A DNA stretch of 64,000 nucleotides from NCBI RefSeq assembly GCF_964355755.1, contig NC_092671.1, positions 26,968,070 through 27,032,069 on the forward strand, given 5' to 3'. A program made the translations under genes and the position numbers. Within the stretch, counting starts at the first letter, position 1. Each line of letters begins with the position of its first letter. Shown in pieces: positions 43,101 to 57,569 of the stretch. The notes under the pieces were generated by a model. That model had not been told where the DNA came from. It saw nothing but the letters and a program-made list of their open reading frames with translations, and searched no databases. The DNA is from Antedon mediterranea (Eukaryota; Echinodermata; Crinoidea; Comatulida; Antedonidae).

Positions 43101-46100
43101 AGTATGTATATAATTCTTGCAATGCACCCTTAATTCTTCTATTTCCTTTGACTTACAAACTAAAAATTTGAATATTGTAATGCATGTTATAGACCTAAAT
43201 CACATAAAAACAAAGGAAATGTTTATAATCGACTTAAAATACCTGTTACTAATTCTTTAAGTGTTTTAATTCCTGTTTCCTTTCTTAAGGCTATGTTCAT
43301 ATGAGGGGGTTATGCCTGAGCTAGAAGGTGTACAAATATAAATGATGAGTCATGGGCAAATTGCAACTTGTGAAGAGTACATTGCCTTTAAACTAAAAAC
43401 AAAATCAGAAAATTATGAAGTCCTTTATTTATAAATTATCATCTTGGCAAAAAATAGAATTTGGTATGAACATATTGTAGATAAATTATTATTTCGACTC
43501 ATACGGCATAGCGTTTAAAAAAAACTAAAACGTTCTTGCTTTATATAGCAAACTTACTGTATTGGCCGACTCTTGACACACGATTAAAATTACAGTTACA
43601 TTCAAGAAGGGGTGTTTTCATCCCATTTGAAACATGACAAATTAGGTAGGCCCTATAATGGTATCAATGCTTGTTTTAACACTTTCCTATTATTTTTACT
43701 ACTGAATTAGAAAATTGAATTTAATTTGTTTGAATGTAATAAATACTAAATTGTAACATTTAATTAATTAATTAATTCATATATACATTTATTCATCAAC
43801 AGTTTATTAATCAATAATTTAATTTAACAATAATTAATCAATAATGTTAACATACATTGAATAATCAAGAAAATAAATAAACTGATGATTTTCATTTCAT
43901 TTCATTCATAAAAAAAAACACAAAAATTATAAAACATGTCAAAGATAAAATGCATAAAAGATGAAAAGGATCAACAACAAAAAGCTAAGAGCTTGTACAA
44001 GGTTGAAGACCTAAAAAAACTAAACAGCTAAAACTATAAAAGGATATATACAATATATTAATATATAAACAAATCAGGCATAGAACATTAATTCTAAACC
44101 GCCCGGTAATATACTGAAATTTAATTAATTAATTTGAAACGATAAAGATGAGGAAATCTGTGAGAATGAGAAAAAGTCGCCCCAACCGAGACTCGAACTC
44201 GGACCGCCTGCTTGATATGCAGATGTCCTAACCGTTAGACCACTGGGGCTTTCACGGTATTGTTCGAACTCGATTGGATAGCGACTCTTTAACATTCTCG
44301 GCGTGGTACGGCGGAACAGCACTAGTCCTCAGTTGTACACACGCGCACCAGAGATCAAATTGATACGCCCTCATCTTACAGTATTTTTAATCACGAGGCG
44401 GGATCTCCGAAGAGATACTTATATATATATAAACAAATCAGGCATAGAACATTAATTCTAAACCGCCCGGTAATATACAATATATTAATATATATATATA
44501 AAATAACATTGACATCGGCAGAAATTAAGATTTGTACTTATTAATTAAATTCAACTTATACAATTTTTTAAAAACATTGATGGATTTTGCATTTTTAAGT
44601 CATATCTAAGTTGTTCCAGACATGAGGACCTGAAACAGCAATACTATGACTTGTAGAAACTAGTCTTCGAAGAGGAGGTCGAAGTTGACATTTTCCTCTA
44701 GTATTGTACTATGATCAGTAACATTTTTAAGGTTTAAAAATCGTAAATCAGGATTATTCAATATTCGGAACATAAAAATGCCAATTTGGTAATTATGAAT
44801 ATCGTCAATTTTTAATACATTATGTATGTGGAAGAGAGGAATTGTTGGTGCACAATAATCAGACCAAGTTATAGCTCGTATCACTTTTTTCTGGAGTTTA
44901 GCAAGTTTATCAAAGAAGCATATGAATTAAACCAAATAATGTTACAATAGCTGATAAGAGGTTGACGTAGGGTCATGCGCGTAAAATCGCGCGTTCAAAA
45001 TTTAAAAAGCTCAAAATTAAGTTTTAATCAATTTAGAGCATGAATTAGGCCAAATGCGTTTTTCAGCGCGCGATTCTTAAAAAGCGTAAAAATACGAATT
45101 TTTTGTAGAAATCGCATTCTACTCACCATCCTTAGTACATTCACCGAATTTGAGTTCGTTCCGACTTAAAATAACGCTACACGAGCATGTTAAAAATGAC
45201 AAAATGCGCACATTAACTGCATAAAAGTGCTGAAAATGATGAAAAATAAGGCATTTTTAAAATGAAAATCATTCTTCAGAATGCACGATGACCCCCAATT
45301 TTTTTTAATTATTCTGGAAGCCATTGAGTTCTAGATATAAATTCATGTACACATTTGACGTACAAAATGTTGTGAGGTCACCAAATGGCCACTCAAATTA
45401 AAAAATTAGGTTTTTTTCTCTTTTGTCATAGATTATCACATTCAACTGAGCGCATCTCGGTTATTTTGTGCCCGATTTTCGCTAAATTTTTTGTATATGA
45501 TTGCTCATTTAATTATCTTTCTCATGAGTTGTCAACATTTTCATTTTGATGACGTCATAAAAACTTGAATAACGTAGGTCGTGTAATTTCATCTACACCA
45601 TACATTTGAATATCTTACAGTTCTTCCGAATTAAATGTGACCTTGATGATTATAATTTATTATGAAAGCTGATGAAATGTAGATATGAATTCATATAAAA
45701 ATTAAGCCTATCGAATGTTGTGATGTTATCATATGGCTAGTTGAAGTTAAAACGTTGTTTTTAAATTTCTTTAGTCGAAGTTATACAAATTTCAAAGAGC
45801 GCGCATTGCGCTTCTACGTGTCAAATTCTCTTCCAATCCTTATATTTATTTGCTCAATAATTATCTTTCGAAATTGTCATCTTCGAGTTTATTTTGATAA
45901 TTCCATCATACCAAAAAAATAGAACATGATGTGGGTCCCGTAATTTCACCTCTGCTACACTGTATATAGATATACAGATACTGTACATATTGTATATGAC
46001 ACATAATAGGTACAACTCAGCACTATACGGTAAGTGTATATGCATCATGTCATAGGATGGCGTACATCAGCTTTTTACGATCGCATGTTAACGTACGTGC

Positions 46101-52100: not shown

Positions 52101-55100
52101 AAAGTAAAATTAAAATGTTAATGTGTGAATAATTCATAATTAACACGGCTATTGCATAGTCACTTTCAATTTTAAAAAGAATACAACATCTATTAAGGGG
52201 CCTCCTTCCATGACCAAACAAAGTGACCCCTTAATAAAGGTGAAACATATACAGTATTTCCTCTAATTCATTTCACATGAAAGTGTCCCCTTAATAGGGT
52301 TGTCTATTGAATAGGGCTTGATCACAGTGTTGAAACATATATTGCTTCTTGTTCATTTCTCATGATAGTGTCCCCTTAATAGGGTTGTCTATTGAATAGG
52401 GCTTGACCACAGTGTTGAAACATATATTGCTTCTTGTTCATTTCTCATGAAAGTGTCCCCTTAATAGGGTTGTCTATTGAATAGGGCTTGACCACAGTGT
52501 TGAAACATATATTGCTTCTTGTTCATTTCTCATGATAGTGTCCCCTTAAATAGGGTTGTCTATTGAATAGGGCTTGACCACAGTGTTGAAACATATATTG
52601 CTTCTTGTTCATTTCTCATGATAGTGTCCCCTTAATAGGGTTGTCTATTGAATAGGGCTTGACCACAGTGTTGAAACATATATTGCTTCTTGTTCATTTC
52701 TCATGAAAGTGTCCCCTTAATATGGTTGTCTATTGAATAGGGCTTGACCACAGTGTTGAAACATATATTGCCTCTTGTTCATTTCACATGATAGTGTCCC
52801 CTTAATAGGGTTGTCTATTGAATAAGGCTTGATCACAGTGTTGAAACATATATTGCTTCTTGTTCATTTCTCATGATAGTGTCCCCTTAATAGGGTTGTC
52901 TATTGAATAGGGCTTGATCACAGTGTTGAAACATATATTGCTTCTTGTTCATTTCTCATGATAGTGTCCCCTTAATAGGGTTGTCTATTGAATAGGGCTT
53001 GACCACAGTGTTGAAACATATATTGCTTCTTGTTCATTTCTCATGATAGTGTCCCCTTAATAGGGTTGTCTATTGAATAGGGCTTGATAACAGTGTTGAA
53101 ACATATATTGCTTCTTGTTCATTTCTCATGATAGTGTCCCCTTAATAGGGTTGTCTATTGAATAGGGCTTGATCACAGTGTTGAAACATATATTGCTTCT
53201 TGTTCATTTCTCATGATAGTGTCCCCTTAATAGGGTTGTCTATTGAATAGGGCTTGATTACAGTGTTGAAACATATATTGCTTCTTGTTCATTTCTCATG
53301 ATAGTGTCCCCTTAATAGGGTTGTCTATTGAATAGGGCTTGACCACAGTGTTGAAACATATATTGCTTCTTGTTCATTTCTCATGATAGTGTCCCCTTAA
53401 TAGGGTTGTCTATTGAATAGGGCTTGACCACAGTGTTGAAACATATATTGCTTCTTGTTCATTTCTCATGAAAGTGTCCCTTTAATAGGGTTTTTAAACA
53501 TATACTGTATTGTTTCCCGTTCATTTCTCATGGGTTTGAACGCAGTGTTGAGACATTGCTTTTCATTCATTTCAAATGAAAGTGTCCCTTTAATAGGGGT
53601 GTCAAAAAGGAGGTGTTCTACTGTACTAAATATAGTATAAAGCACTTTTATACAAAACATGTTACTGTAGGAAGTATGGCTAAACTATTTTAGTGTTCGA
53701 TATATAATTTGAAGTTTAGCTTGGTAAATGATCCACTATCAATCCTTGGGTCTTCGATCCTATTCGACTCATCATTGCTTCATTCAACTCATGATAATAT
53801 TTTTCCATTCAACTCATAAACATTAACTATTTGTATACCACTATGTTAGTACTGTATCTGCAACACCTGTGAATACATTGAGTTTTATCCATTATTGTAA
53901 GTTAAGTACATTTTGAAAATCTGCAAATTTGCATACTATATCAACGACAGCAAATTTAAATACTATGACAAGTCACTTAATAGGCATTTATATTTTAGGC
54001 TCTAACAATGTACCAGGTGGTTCTGTGGTAGTTACAGGCTGATACATACTGTAGGTTAAATGACATGAAGTAAACCATAAAGGACTATTAAAATTATTTA
54101 TTATTAGAGCTAAATAGTACAGTGAAGGATTTTATTTTTTATTAGATCACAGCATACGTTTTTAAACAAAAAGAAACAGTGGAGGATATAGTAATAAGGA
54201 ATTTGGAAAAACAAAATATCGGCAGGTCTTACGAAACTATAAATGATGATAATACATTAAACTATAGAGGGTGCTATGAAAAAACTAAAAATATTAGCAT
54301 CTATAATTGATTATAAACATATATCTTACGGACCGATGTTTGTAAAGCAACTACAGTAAAATATGCACATGTTTCACAGGCAAAATGTCAACATTGTCAT
54401 ATCTTCTTATTGTTTCTATCACCATTGAAAGTCGAAGGTTGGTTTATAGTGAAAAATATTACAAAATGTAATACATTTTTTTTCAGTTTATATATAGTTG
54501 GAGAAACACGCCTTTTTGTGACATTTGAAACCTTTTATATGCTTCACTGAAAGTAATAAAATAAACTAAAAACAATCTTCATAAAATGCTAACTTCTGAA
54601 TTTGGCAGTACAGTTTGACATAACTCTCCTCCAAAGCTATCTATTGCTTCTCTCTTTTGCTATTCTTAACCAGTCTCATTTTGGGTTTGCCTCTTTTCTT
54701 TTTCTCTATCCTTGGTTGCTCAACCACAGTCCTGCTTGTTCATTTATTGTTCAAAGTCTTCCAGCATAGCCTGCCCATTTCCACTTAGTTTTAGCAATTG
54801 CTTGAAGCAGATCTCAGATTTTTTTATCTTTTCTTCATTACTTTGCATGGTACTGTACATTGTCCACTATTGTTGCTAATTTTATTGTAGATAAATTTGA
54901 ACTGATTCCAATAATGCAAAAGCAAAAACTTGGCTACATCTAATTTACTGTCACATATGTCATAAGGGAAGATTGTCTGCTGCGACAATACTCTATTATT
55001 AATGTATAACTCCTCAAAAAGAAGGTCATTAGGGTTATATCTGGTGCTCTATCTTTATCTCCATCTTTTCTGTAGTCTCTACTTTTTCAAACTGACATTA

Positions 55101-55438: not shown

Positions 55439-55530
55439 CTGTGAAATGAAAGCATGGTTAAATATATAAAGAACTTACATTAATGGGGTGAAATTTGACA
55501 TGTAGACAATACCAGTTATATTAACTGTTA

Positions 55531-55704
55531 AGGCCAACTCAGACAGCATTGTACGACGAGGCCTGACAAAACGTCTTGACGAGCCGTCTTGAGATAGCGT
55601 TGGGCATAGTTTTTAGGTCGTAGAGAAAACTTTAAACATGTTTAGTTTTTTCCCAACGAGACAATTCATCGAGCCTCGTCGTACAACGCTGCCTGAGTTG
55701 GCCT
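55531..55704. mobile_element. Harbinger-type MITE, 174 bp, TTA target
   Basis: AGGCCAACTCAGACAGC at the left is mirrored by GCTGCCTGAGTTGGCCT at the right. TTA lies on both sides (55528-55530 and 55705-55707). Inside, GTACGACGAGGCCTGACAAA and GCCTCGTCGTAC extend the inverted arms. Confidence 0.8.
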
Positions 55705-55859
55705 TTACAATGCTGGATTGATCCTACCATGAATAATACCCTAAAGATTTTAATTTTAACTGTAAAATATTACATGTAAAGGCTGGTGTAACCAAGAAAA
55801 GACACATTCTAAATTAATTATTATTAAAGGTGCCATTGTACAAGAGAACATAGGCCTAT

Positions 55860-56060
55860 AATATCTTCTATTTTTATTTATTATATAAATCAAAAGGCAA
55901 ATTACTGACAATGACAATGCTATTAGTGGCTGGATTTCAATGGAGATACAAATAAAATAAGCAAAAAGCTGAATCAATACAATAAAGTAAGAGTAGAAGT
56001 AGAGCTTACAGGTAGTACTAACCCTTCCTCAGTGCAAGAAGGAATGGTTAGACTTTTTTA
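55860..56060 (-). repeat. Penelope-like fragment with degenerate hammerhead
   Basis: On the minus strand it reads TTCTTGCACTGAGGAAGGGT (56040 down), then later TTTGTATCTCCATTGAAATC and CAGTAATTTGCCTTTTG, the same order as 56750-56945. The hammerhead core is damaged: CTGAGGA for CTGATGA, and GTAA for GAAA. Confidence 0.6.
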
Positions 56061-56095
<35 letters not shown>

Positions 56096-56259
56096 AATTC
56101 AGGCAAAGAACATTAATTCTAAACCGCCCGGTGTATATATATATATATAAACACATTAGGCAATGAACATTAATTCGAAACCGCCCGGTGATATACTGAA
56201 ATTTAATTAATTAATTTGAAACGATAAAGATGAGGAAATCTGTGAGAATGAGAAAAAGT

Positions 56260-56331
56260 CGCCCCAACCGAGACTCGAACTCGGACCGCCTGCTTGATAT
56301 GCAGATGTCCTAACCATTAGACCACTGGGGC
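56260..56331 (-). tRNA. tRNA-like gene, anticodon ATC, copy 2
   Basis: Same cloverleaf as copy 1, with one D-loop change. Anticodon loop ATATCAA, discriminator G, T5 run downstream. Confidence 0.6.
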
Positions 56332-56516
56332 TTTCATGGTATTGTTCAAACTCGATTGGATAGCGACTCTTTAACATTCTCGGCGTGGTACGGCGGTAAT
56401 ATAAACACGTTAGGCAATGAACATTAATTCGAAACCGCCCGGTGATAATATACTGAAATTTAATTAATTAATTTGAAACAATAAAGATGAGGAAATCTGT
56501 GAGAATGAGAAAAAGT

Positions 56517-56588
56517 CGCCCCAACCGAGACTCGAACTCGGACCGCCTGCTTGATATGCAGATGTCATAACCATTAGACCACTGGGGC
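56517..56588 (-). tRNA. tRNA-like gene, anticodon ATC, copy 3
   Basis: Same as copy 2 except for a D-arm change (GGTTATGAC for GGTTAGGAC) that replaces the T-G pair of the stem with T-T. T5 run downstream. Confidence 0.55.
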
Positions 56589-56749
56589 TTTCATGGTATT
56601 GTTCAAACTCGATTGGATAGCAACTCTTTAACATTCTCGGCGTGGTACGACGGAACAGCACTAGTCCTCAGTTGTATGCACGCGCACCAGAGATCAAATT
56701 GATACGCCCTCATCTTTCAGTATTTATATTATATATATATATATATAAT

Positions 56750-56937
56750 ATGACGTTATCCAAATTCCTTCACTTGCACTGATGAAGGGCTAGTGTTGCC
56801 CGAAAGCTCTGCTAACTTTTCTGGCTGTTTACTTTATCGTTTTGATTTAGCTTTTCGCTTTTTATTTTTGTATCTCCATTGAGATCCAGCCACTGATACC
56901 CACAGCATTGTCATTTTTTTCAGTAATTTGCCTTTGG

Positions 56938-56945
<8 letters not shown>
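56750..56945 (+). repeat. Penelope-like fragment carrying a hammerhead motif
   Basis: The fragment starts at a (TA)n tract, holds the hammerhead core at 56771-56815, then TTTGTATCTCCATTGAGATC, CAGCATTGTCATTTTT, CAGTAATTTGCCTTTGGA, and ends at another (TA)n tract. Scraps of the same unit are at 32886-32975, 38355-38400 and 55860-56060. Hammerheads near the ends and microsatellite neighbours are known for Penelope-like elements. No reverse transcriptase is present, so the assignment is inference. Confidence 0.55.
56771..56815 (+). ncRNA. Type I hammerhead ribozyme candidate
   Basis: Core boxes in order: CTGATGA (56779-56785), stem II GGGC/GCCC (56787-56790 with 56798-56801) closed by loop TAGTGTT, GAAA (56802-56805), then GC and TC with the expected cleavage after C56809. 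Stem I starts with GCA (56776-56778) pairing TGC (56810-56812). Stem III is minimal (one A-U pair across GC), as in hammerheads of Penelope-like elements, which often act as dimers. Confidence 0.7.
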
Positions 56946-56975
<30 letters not shown>

Positions 56976-57083
56976 ACAACAGGCATAGAAATAAATTCCA
57001 AACCGCCCGGTGATACACTGAAAATTATTTAATTAATTTTTGAAACGATAAAGATGAGGAAATCTGTGAGAATGAGAAAAAGT

Positions 57084-57155
57084 CGCCCCAACCGAGACTC
57101 GAACTCGGACCGTCTGCTTGATATGCAGTTGCCCTAACCATTAGACCACTGGGGC
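57084..57155 (-). tRNA. tRNA-like gene, anticodon ATC, copy 4
   Basis: Cloverleaf kept, with changes in the D-arm (GGTTAGGGC) and anticodon stem (CTGC/GCAG kept, outer pair changed). Loop ATATCAA. T5 run downstream. Confidence 0.55.
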
Positions 57156-57497
57156 TTTCATGGTATTGTTCTTTAACTCGATCGGATAACGACCCTTTAA
57201 CATTCTCGGCGTGGTACGGTTGGAACACAACTAGTCCTCAGTTGTACGCACGCGCACCAGAGATCAAATTGATACGCCCTCATCTATAATTCAGTATATT
57301 TATTCACTAAGCGGGATCTCGAGAGATACTTTTATATATATATAAACACAACAGGCATAGAAATAAATTCCAAACCGCCCGGTGATACACTGAAAATTAT
57401 TTAATTAATTTTTGAAACGATAAAGTGTTCCAACCGTACCACGCCGAGAATGTTAAAGGGTCGTTATCCGATCGAGTTAAAGAACAATACCATGAAA

Positions 57498-57569
57498 GCC
57501 CCAGTGATCTAATGGTTAGGGCAACTGCATATCAAGCAGACGGTCCGAGTTCGAGTCTAGGTTGGGGCG
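57498..57569 (+). tRNA. tRNA-like gene, anticodon ATC, copy 5
   Basis: Inverted partner of copy 4. Two further changes: GTGATCT for GTGGTCT in the A-box and TCTAGG for TCTCGG in the T-stem, both weakening the fold. T5 run downstream. Probably a pseudogene copy. Confidence 0.45.

Follow-up and report, generated by a model that had tools for sequence, protein, structure and literature searches.

Minimal type I hammerheads number in the thousands in many animal genomes, and some of them are placed in the pseudo-LTRs of Penelope elements (PMC7761336). The anatomy of these elements, pseudo-LTRs included, is set out in PMC11167929; their minimal hammerheads are described as lacking stem III, and a stem III formed between two hammerheads has been reported for Penelope motifs (PMC7761336). 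The hammerhead of an anole element showed no cleavage without its protein (PMC11167929), and a review of 2020 called the role of Penelope hammerheads in life a mystery (PMC7761336). Here we analyze a site of this kind at 56771-56815 of a 64,000-nt stretch of the Antedon mediterranea genome (the whole of which we refer to as the window). Judged by the sequence comparisons given below, the hammerhead core at this site is real and lies far above chance. The reading that we consider highly likely is that of a minimal type I hammerhead belonging to a Penelope-like retroelement, predicted to cleave as a dimer, with the window copy derived from a (TA)n-primed insertion. The features concerned are as follows:

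56749-56938, plus strand: 5'-truncated 3' end (pseudo-LTR and tail) of a Penelope-like element, from near-identical genome copies, the longer of which reach reverse transcriptase (RT) and GIY-YIG
56774-56778, plus strand: 5' strand of hammerhead stem I, UUGCA, from its pairing with 56810-56814 except for one U.U
56779-56785, plus strand: core box CUGAUGA (CTGATGA in the DNA; C3 to A9), read directly
56786, plus strand: additional core base separating A9 from stem II, from pattern counts with and without an extra base
56787-56801, plus strand: stem II GGGC/GCCC with a 7-nt loop, from covariation between families
56802-56805, plus strand: core box GAAA (G12, A13, A14, A15.1), read directly
56805-56808, plus strand: palindrome AGCU, proposed dimer stem III, from full self-complementarity in 12 of 18 rows, counted without a chance control
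56809-56814, plus strand: predicted cleavage after C56809 (H17), then the 3' strand of stem I, from the UH rule and stem I pairing
56815-56938, plus strand: tail following the ribozyme as far as (TA)n, from copy comparison
55993-56039, minus strand: decayed hammerhead of a related subfamily (CTGAGGA A GGGT..ACCT GTAA), from a covariance score of 27.6 bits, E 0.0011

Both boxes of the hammerhead definition, CUGANGA and GAAA, can be read directly at the site, as the original prediction had stated, and the 4-bp stem II that it described is borne out by the pairing of GGGC (56787-56790) with GCCC (56798-56801). Stem I sets UUGCA against UGCUA (56810-56814), and the latter is immediately preceded by the dinucleotide UC at 56808-56809; by the UH rule and stem I pairing, the place after C56809 that had been put forward for cleavage is the best-scoring candidate. 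The (TA)n tracts said to enclose the unit are present on both flanks. The claim that the boxes are canonically spaced is refuted by A56786, an additional base that separates A9 from position 10.1. Folded within 66 nt of context, the site takes a lowest-energy structure that differs from the hammerhead, and 119 of 200 shuffled sequences fold equally well or better (z 0.36); in a 53-nt piece, stems I and II are both present in the lowest-energy fold, and stem I is missing from that fold in two of the five motifs folded as short pieces.

The extra base is not peculiar to this copy. Across the 354-Mb genome, CTGATGANGG..CCGAAA is matched 1256 times (counting families 1 and 2, as defined below, together) and the reversed pattern once, and all 1256 matches keep both CTGATGA and GAAA, the conservation among genomic copies on which the original prediction had been staked. 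With A, C or G at position 7 and the extra base kept, there are 45 matches against 6 in the control, whereas a pattern without the extra base gives 17 against 11, and 9 of these 17 resemble known-family copies that have had a single base altered or deleted. These counts make the extra base a characteristic of the families with a stem II beginning GG..CC. Most families seen share it, but it is not universal, being absent from family 3 (CTGAAGA, with an 11-bp stem II), and its identity varies: A in family 1, T in family 2, and C in most matches of family 4. An extra core base in most families would suit an explanation in which the motif is conserved for some other reason, such as an RNA signal bound by the RT protein for template recognition, and is no longer catalytic in family 1; against this, a viroid hammerhead with an extra base of the same kind can still cleave (PMC3705267), and because that hammerhead is active we take the extra base as not disqualifying. 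In the plus-strand hammerhead of the viroid CChMVd, the rate is moderately reduced by an A between A9 and G10.1 and increased by a U, and C or G is detrimental (PMC3705267); by that measure, the C in most family 4 matches would be poor. We found no description of an extra base in Penelope hammerheads in the literature compared, which excludes Cervera and de la Pena 2014 and Lunse et al. 2017, and we make no claim of novelty for it.

Searches with the Rfam models were uniformly negative. Rfam release 15 at its gathering score gave no hammerhead match in the window; relaxing the limit to E 5 over 55500-57500 brought up no match either, nor did a limit of E 0.5 in six motif-bearing loci. A genome search with RF00163 and RF03152 returned no matches, but carries no information because its controls were equally silent. 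The covariance match to which the original prediction looked thus did not appear with either model, these being models without demonstrated recall of Penelope hammerheads here. Covariance models built from this genome, whose E-values are rough, do detect the site. A 12-row model with family 1 left out (its rows found via a pattern sharing the core, with L186, L189, L190, L192, and L194 sharing downstream sequence with family 1 by eye) places 56772-56818 at 47.2 bits (E 1.4e-7), the best of four hits with E up to 10 in the window, with the decayed minus-strand copy also detected and the next hit at E 0.26. A stricter 10-row model, whose rows have other flanks (three of family 2, five of family 4, L191, and L195), again ranks the site first, at 23.3 bits (E 0.0054; next hit E 0.29). 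The decayed copy that had been announced on the minus strand is confirmed at 55993-56039 by the former model and is not significant with the stricter one (E 3.2). Its GAAA has become GTAA, and it lies within an inverted copy (arms 55899-55990 and 56829-56920, 80%).

Since the copies of a single repeat do not count as independent evidence, the weight rests on the other families. Family 1 is that of the present site, with a family 1b whose stem II is GGAC/GTCC. Family 2, with T as its extra base, has stem II GGGC/GCCC closed by a 3-nt loop and 180 matches to its tail anchor; family 3 has 193 matches to its own; and family 4 (CTGAGGA, with C or T as the extra base) has stem II GGAGA/TCTCC. Single relatives carry GGAA/TTCC, GGAT/ATCC, GGGT/ACCC, or GGGA/TCCC. 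Across 12 distinct combinations of the third and fourth pairs of stem II, pairing scores 18.5 of 24, compared with 9.0 (sd 1.9) when the 3' strands are exchanged (p 5e-5), and over all 17 rows the score is 28.5 of 34 against 13.5. Stem I complementarity has p 0.003 over 18 rows, some of them close relatives, with the same freedom allowed in each exchange; this is the figure to rely on, rather than the p of 0.001 obtained from eight hand-chosen rows. In a 12-row alignment without family 1 (omitting L187a, L187b, L188, L193, and further rows, several with broken stems, and with the two outer stem II pairs fixed by the search pattern), the fraction of cells that pair is 97.7% (shuffles, 77.9%), and covariation scores 0.451 (shuffles, 0.112); in the same alignment, pairs changed on both sides (2 against 1.8) and further pair types (5 against 3.9) do not rise above shuffles. 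A separate alignment, A2, was left unused, its GAAA being out of register.

As judged from these alignments, the comparison between families shows that compensatory changes have preserved stem II and that stem I has stayed complementary, with less strong support for stem I, and the site thus has both stems of a hammerhead with covariation. The covariation in stem II that had been foreseen for genomic copies therefore stands between families; within family 1 it does not, as 11 of 17 distinct rows with altered stem II, some of them 5'-truncated, have a broken pair, as expected for dead copies. Among 57 distinct family-1 rows, A13, A14, and A15.1 are invariant and G12 is altered in 2, while each position from C3 to A9 varies in between 2 and 11 rows, partly because the rows include 5'-truncated copies. 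A chance match to the hammerhead consensus inside a repeat, subsequently multiplied by transposition, would explain the lack of an Rfam hit, and the non-independence of repeat copies would leave room for it; yet families with unlike stems and loops share the motif, covariance models without family 1 still find the site, and the idea is contradicted by the covariation of stem II between families, such that we regard it as scarcely credible.

In place of the minimal stem III that had been proposed there is only a dimer palindrome: a stem within a single molecule is impossible because the palindrome AGCU at 56805-56808 leaves no loop, and cleavage after C56809 should therefore need a dimer. The CChMVd viroid hammerhead has an ordinary stem III, unlike the site here. 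The segment from GAA to the cut is fully self-complementary in 12 of 18 rows (AGCU, ACAUGU, ACAAAUUUGU, AAUAUU, AUAUGU, AGUU), in a count for which the outer A-U is fixed by rule, several rows are related, and there is no chance control; the full palindrome is absent from L187a, L187b, L190, L193, L194, and L195. The AGCU duplex is weak, at a predicted -2.5 kcal/mol, and self-pairing of AGUU is not predicted (+3.8 kcal/mol). An absent helix III together with a possible dimer geometry is what characterizes minimal Penelope hammerheads, and on its letters the palindromic segment fits a stem III between two hammerheads of the sort reported for Penelope motifs. Under the scheme that we favor, two hammerheads, from one tandem transcript or from two transcripts, would pair via AGCU to form stem III; self-cleavage after C56809 would occur only in such a paired state, and would cut a tandem transcript into units. 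The element's protein would probably assist such cleavage, help that is plausible because the 66-nt context folds otherwise.

The identity of the host element is apparent from its longer copies. A DNA search with the 181-nt unit, which scored best candidates only, listed 43 matches, 40 of which (the window copy included) are at 100% over at least 180 nt. Copy L031 (on C4) has a 650-residue open frame with RVT_1 at E 2.9e-9 and GIY-YIG at 22.5 bits, just under the cut-off of 22.6, which L027 passes with 23.3 bits. In the C7 copy, hammerheads 3163 bp apart flank the coding region on both sides; the coding region consists of two overlapping open frames, approximately 214 nt separate the beginning of the 5' core from the first ATG, and the second frame matches the L027 protein at 98%, with no Pfam match to the first. 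Copy L037 (on C2), in which the coding region is broken, has hammerheads 3470 bp apart, the 3' one with a broken outer stem II pair. Long copies thus show hammerheads on both sides of an RT/GIY-YIG coding region, which is Penelope anatomy, and the attribution of the window copy to a Penelope-like element holds, the copy itself being a fragment without the coding region. As far as its sequence goes, it is a dead fragment in which the ribozyme sequence is intact. In family 3, the motif at L201 lies 91 nt past the end of a frame whose GIY-YIG character is apparent by eye only, without a Pfam call, and which is itself preceded by a diverged RT-like frame (RVT_1 E 0.001, 19.2 bits, under the cut-off of 29.6); in the family 2 pieces examined, no host element was found.

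With several motif families and dozens of near-identical insertions in this genome, the question whether cut or uncut RNA was copied can be put to the insertion ends. At the 3' end, a TA tract comes after the tail in 21 of the copies L001-L030; in 8 the tail is altered or gives way to other sequence, and in 1, the C7 element, there is an internal continuation, with TATATATATTTTCTAC after the tail. The tail end is recognizable in 66 of 98 short pieces (32 unrecognized), followed by alternating TA in 50 and by other letters in 16; an internal continuation is invisible in these pieces because they end approximately 10 nt beyond the tail. Target-primed reverse transcription would begin at the internal TATATATAT, approximately 125 nt downstream of the ribozyme, with (TA)n ends serving as target, and in the case of the window copy it would have stopped just upstream of the ribozyme.

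For the 5' ends, 100 places listed of 843 anchor matches were reduced to 86 groups by removal of likely duplicates. Twelve reach the end of the piece (11 after approximately 219 nt, and L037 because its piece starts there), and of the 74 junctions that remain, 1 falls at U56810, 2 within 56808-56812, and 13 in 56801-56820. We thus reject the notion that insertion 5' ends mark the cleavage site. With no pile-up of ends there, insertions probably did not as a rule use cut RNA as their template, and RNA cut at that site was probably not the source of most copies examined. The junctions do crowd elsewhere: of the 70 in 56622-56820, 32 are gathered at the hammerhead's 5' edge, 56762-56786 (scan against uniform, p 0.0005), where TTCACTT could be a transcription start. 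This crowding is carried by C1 (28 of 54, compared with 4 of 16 on C2; L039-L117, L158-L176), and we do not regard it as a general trait, given the low C2 count and the fact that most of 20 family-2 and 20 family-3 pieces extend past this edge by eye.

The same ends bear on two further explanations. The short length and near identity of many copies might indicate that the 181-nt unit is a free-standing, non-autonomous retrozyme (a small circular RNA) rather than a truncated Penelope end, and animal retrozymes are indeed approximately 170-400 nt long with type I hammerheads (PMC7229834). Yet the 5' ends here are ragged, with 11 of the 86 deduplicated copies among the listed places extending at least approximately 219 nt upstream into the element. 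Retrozymes are, in addition, tandem repeats, and among the matches listed we find none of the 150-450 bp tandem repeats of animal retrozymes, only three close same-strand pairs (one in L006, and one each on C1 and C2 among the 100 listed of 843); we consider this explanation improbable. A non-catalytic role for the motif, as raised above, draws on the lack of crowding at the cleavage site and on the normal insertion of ribozyme mutants of the anole element (PMC11167929), whereas families with different stems keep the core and a possible UH cleavage position, in searches whose patterns forced the core. On balance we think it unlikely, if the strongest of the competitors, and retain the dimer-cleaving Penelope hammerhead as our reading.

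Neighboring copies of families 2 and 3 tend to be oriented head to head. The 200 places listed (100 of 180 for family 2 and 100 of 193 for family 3) include 29 neighboring pairs no more than 600 bp apart, of which 23 are -/+, 3 are +/-, and 3 are on the same strand. The window segments 55886-56050 (minus) and 56749-56930 (plus) are likewise head-to-head neighbors; among 79 family 1 places on C1 no such bias was seen, and there was one ++ pair. At L124/L125 (C1, approximately 19588324-19588383), two family 2 copies are, by eye, joined head to head on an ACATGT palindrome. Head-to-head pairs fit priming on both strands of a cut, and one could imagine that the palindromic stem III is mainly a dimerization device, joining two element RNAs and letting the RT/endonuclease prime both strands of the cut (TA)n to yield head-to-head insertions, with cleavage secondary, gated by protein, and slowed by the extra core base so that uncut RNA remains for copying; we give this extended scheme little credence compared with the simpler Penelope hammerhead reading. 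Separately, copy L017 lies outside (TA)n and has on its flanks, by eye, a near-perfect direct repeat of approximately 20 bp that looks like a target-site duplication.

The window contains other repeats as well. Sequences resembling tRNA-Asp (anticodon ATC), with their flanks, occur at 44178-44249, 56260-56331, 56517-56588, 57084-57155, and 57498-57569; two of them form a close inverted pair, and some end in (TA)n like the Penelope copies. That these repeats carry a Penelope tail was considered and not adopted, a shared 11-mer falling short of significance (p 0.067). A tandem array with an 85-bp unit occupies 53000-53606, its successive 238-nt stretches being 97-99% alike except for the last, at 74% (the search began at 53000, and the array may start earlier). 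Finally, an inverted repeat at 55526-55709, with 51-nt arms that are 82% complementary and 82 nt apart, is possibly a small inverted-repeat element.

Taken with its relatives, the site is a further case of the already known minimal Penelope hammerheads. Those described (PMC7761336, PMC6155905) share with it the core, the missing helix III, the place in the pseudo-LTR, and a tandem arrangement possibly allowing dimers; the extra base after A9 in most families here is a difference from the descriptions compared. That base, between A9 and 10.1, is in turn shared with the plus-strand hammerhead of CChMVd, where it occurs with activity (PMC3705267). The axolotl retrozyme HHR_Amex1 has a similarly very weak helix III with a palindromic loop, and is better as a dimer, whereas animal retrozymes, as described in the same source, are non-autonomous tandem repeats with contacts between loops 1 and 2, and the unit here is a Penelope fragment (PMC7229834). 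With PAc, a Poseidon element of Anolis carolinensis, the present family shares the RT and GIY-YIG ORF, AT-rich targets, and a hammerhead upstream of the start of reverse transcription; the PAc hammerhead overlaps the start of the ORF, whereas here the first ATG of the open frame follows the core at the distance given above, and reverse transcription of PAc starts at an internal site not homologous to the cut DNA, whereas here the presumptive start would itself be TATATATAT (PMC11167929). The insertion ends in this genome favor the copying of uncut RNA, in agreement with the behavior of the anole Penelope protein in vitro (PMC11167929).
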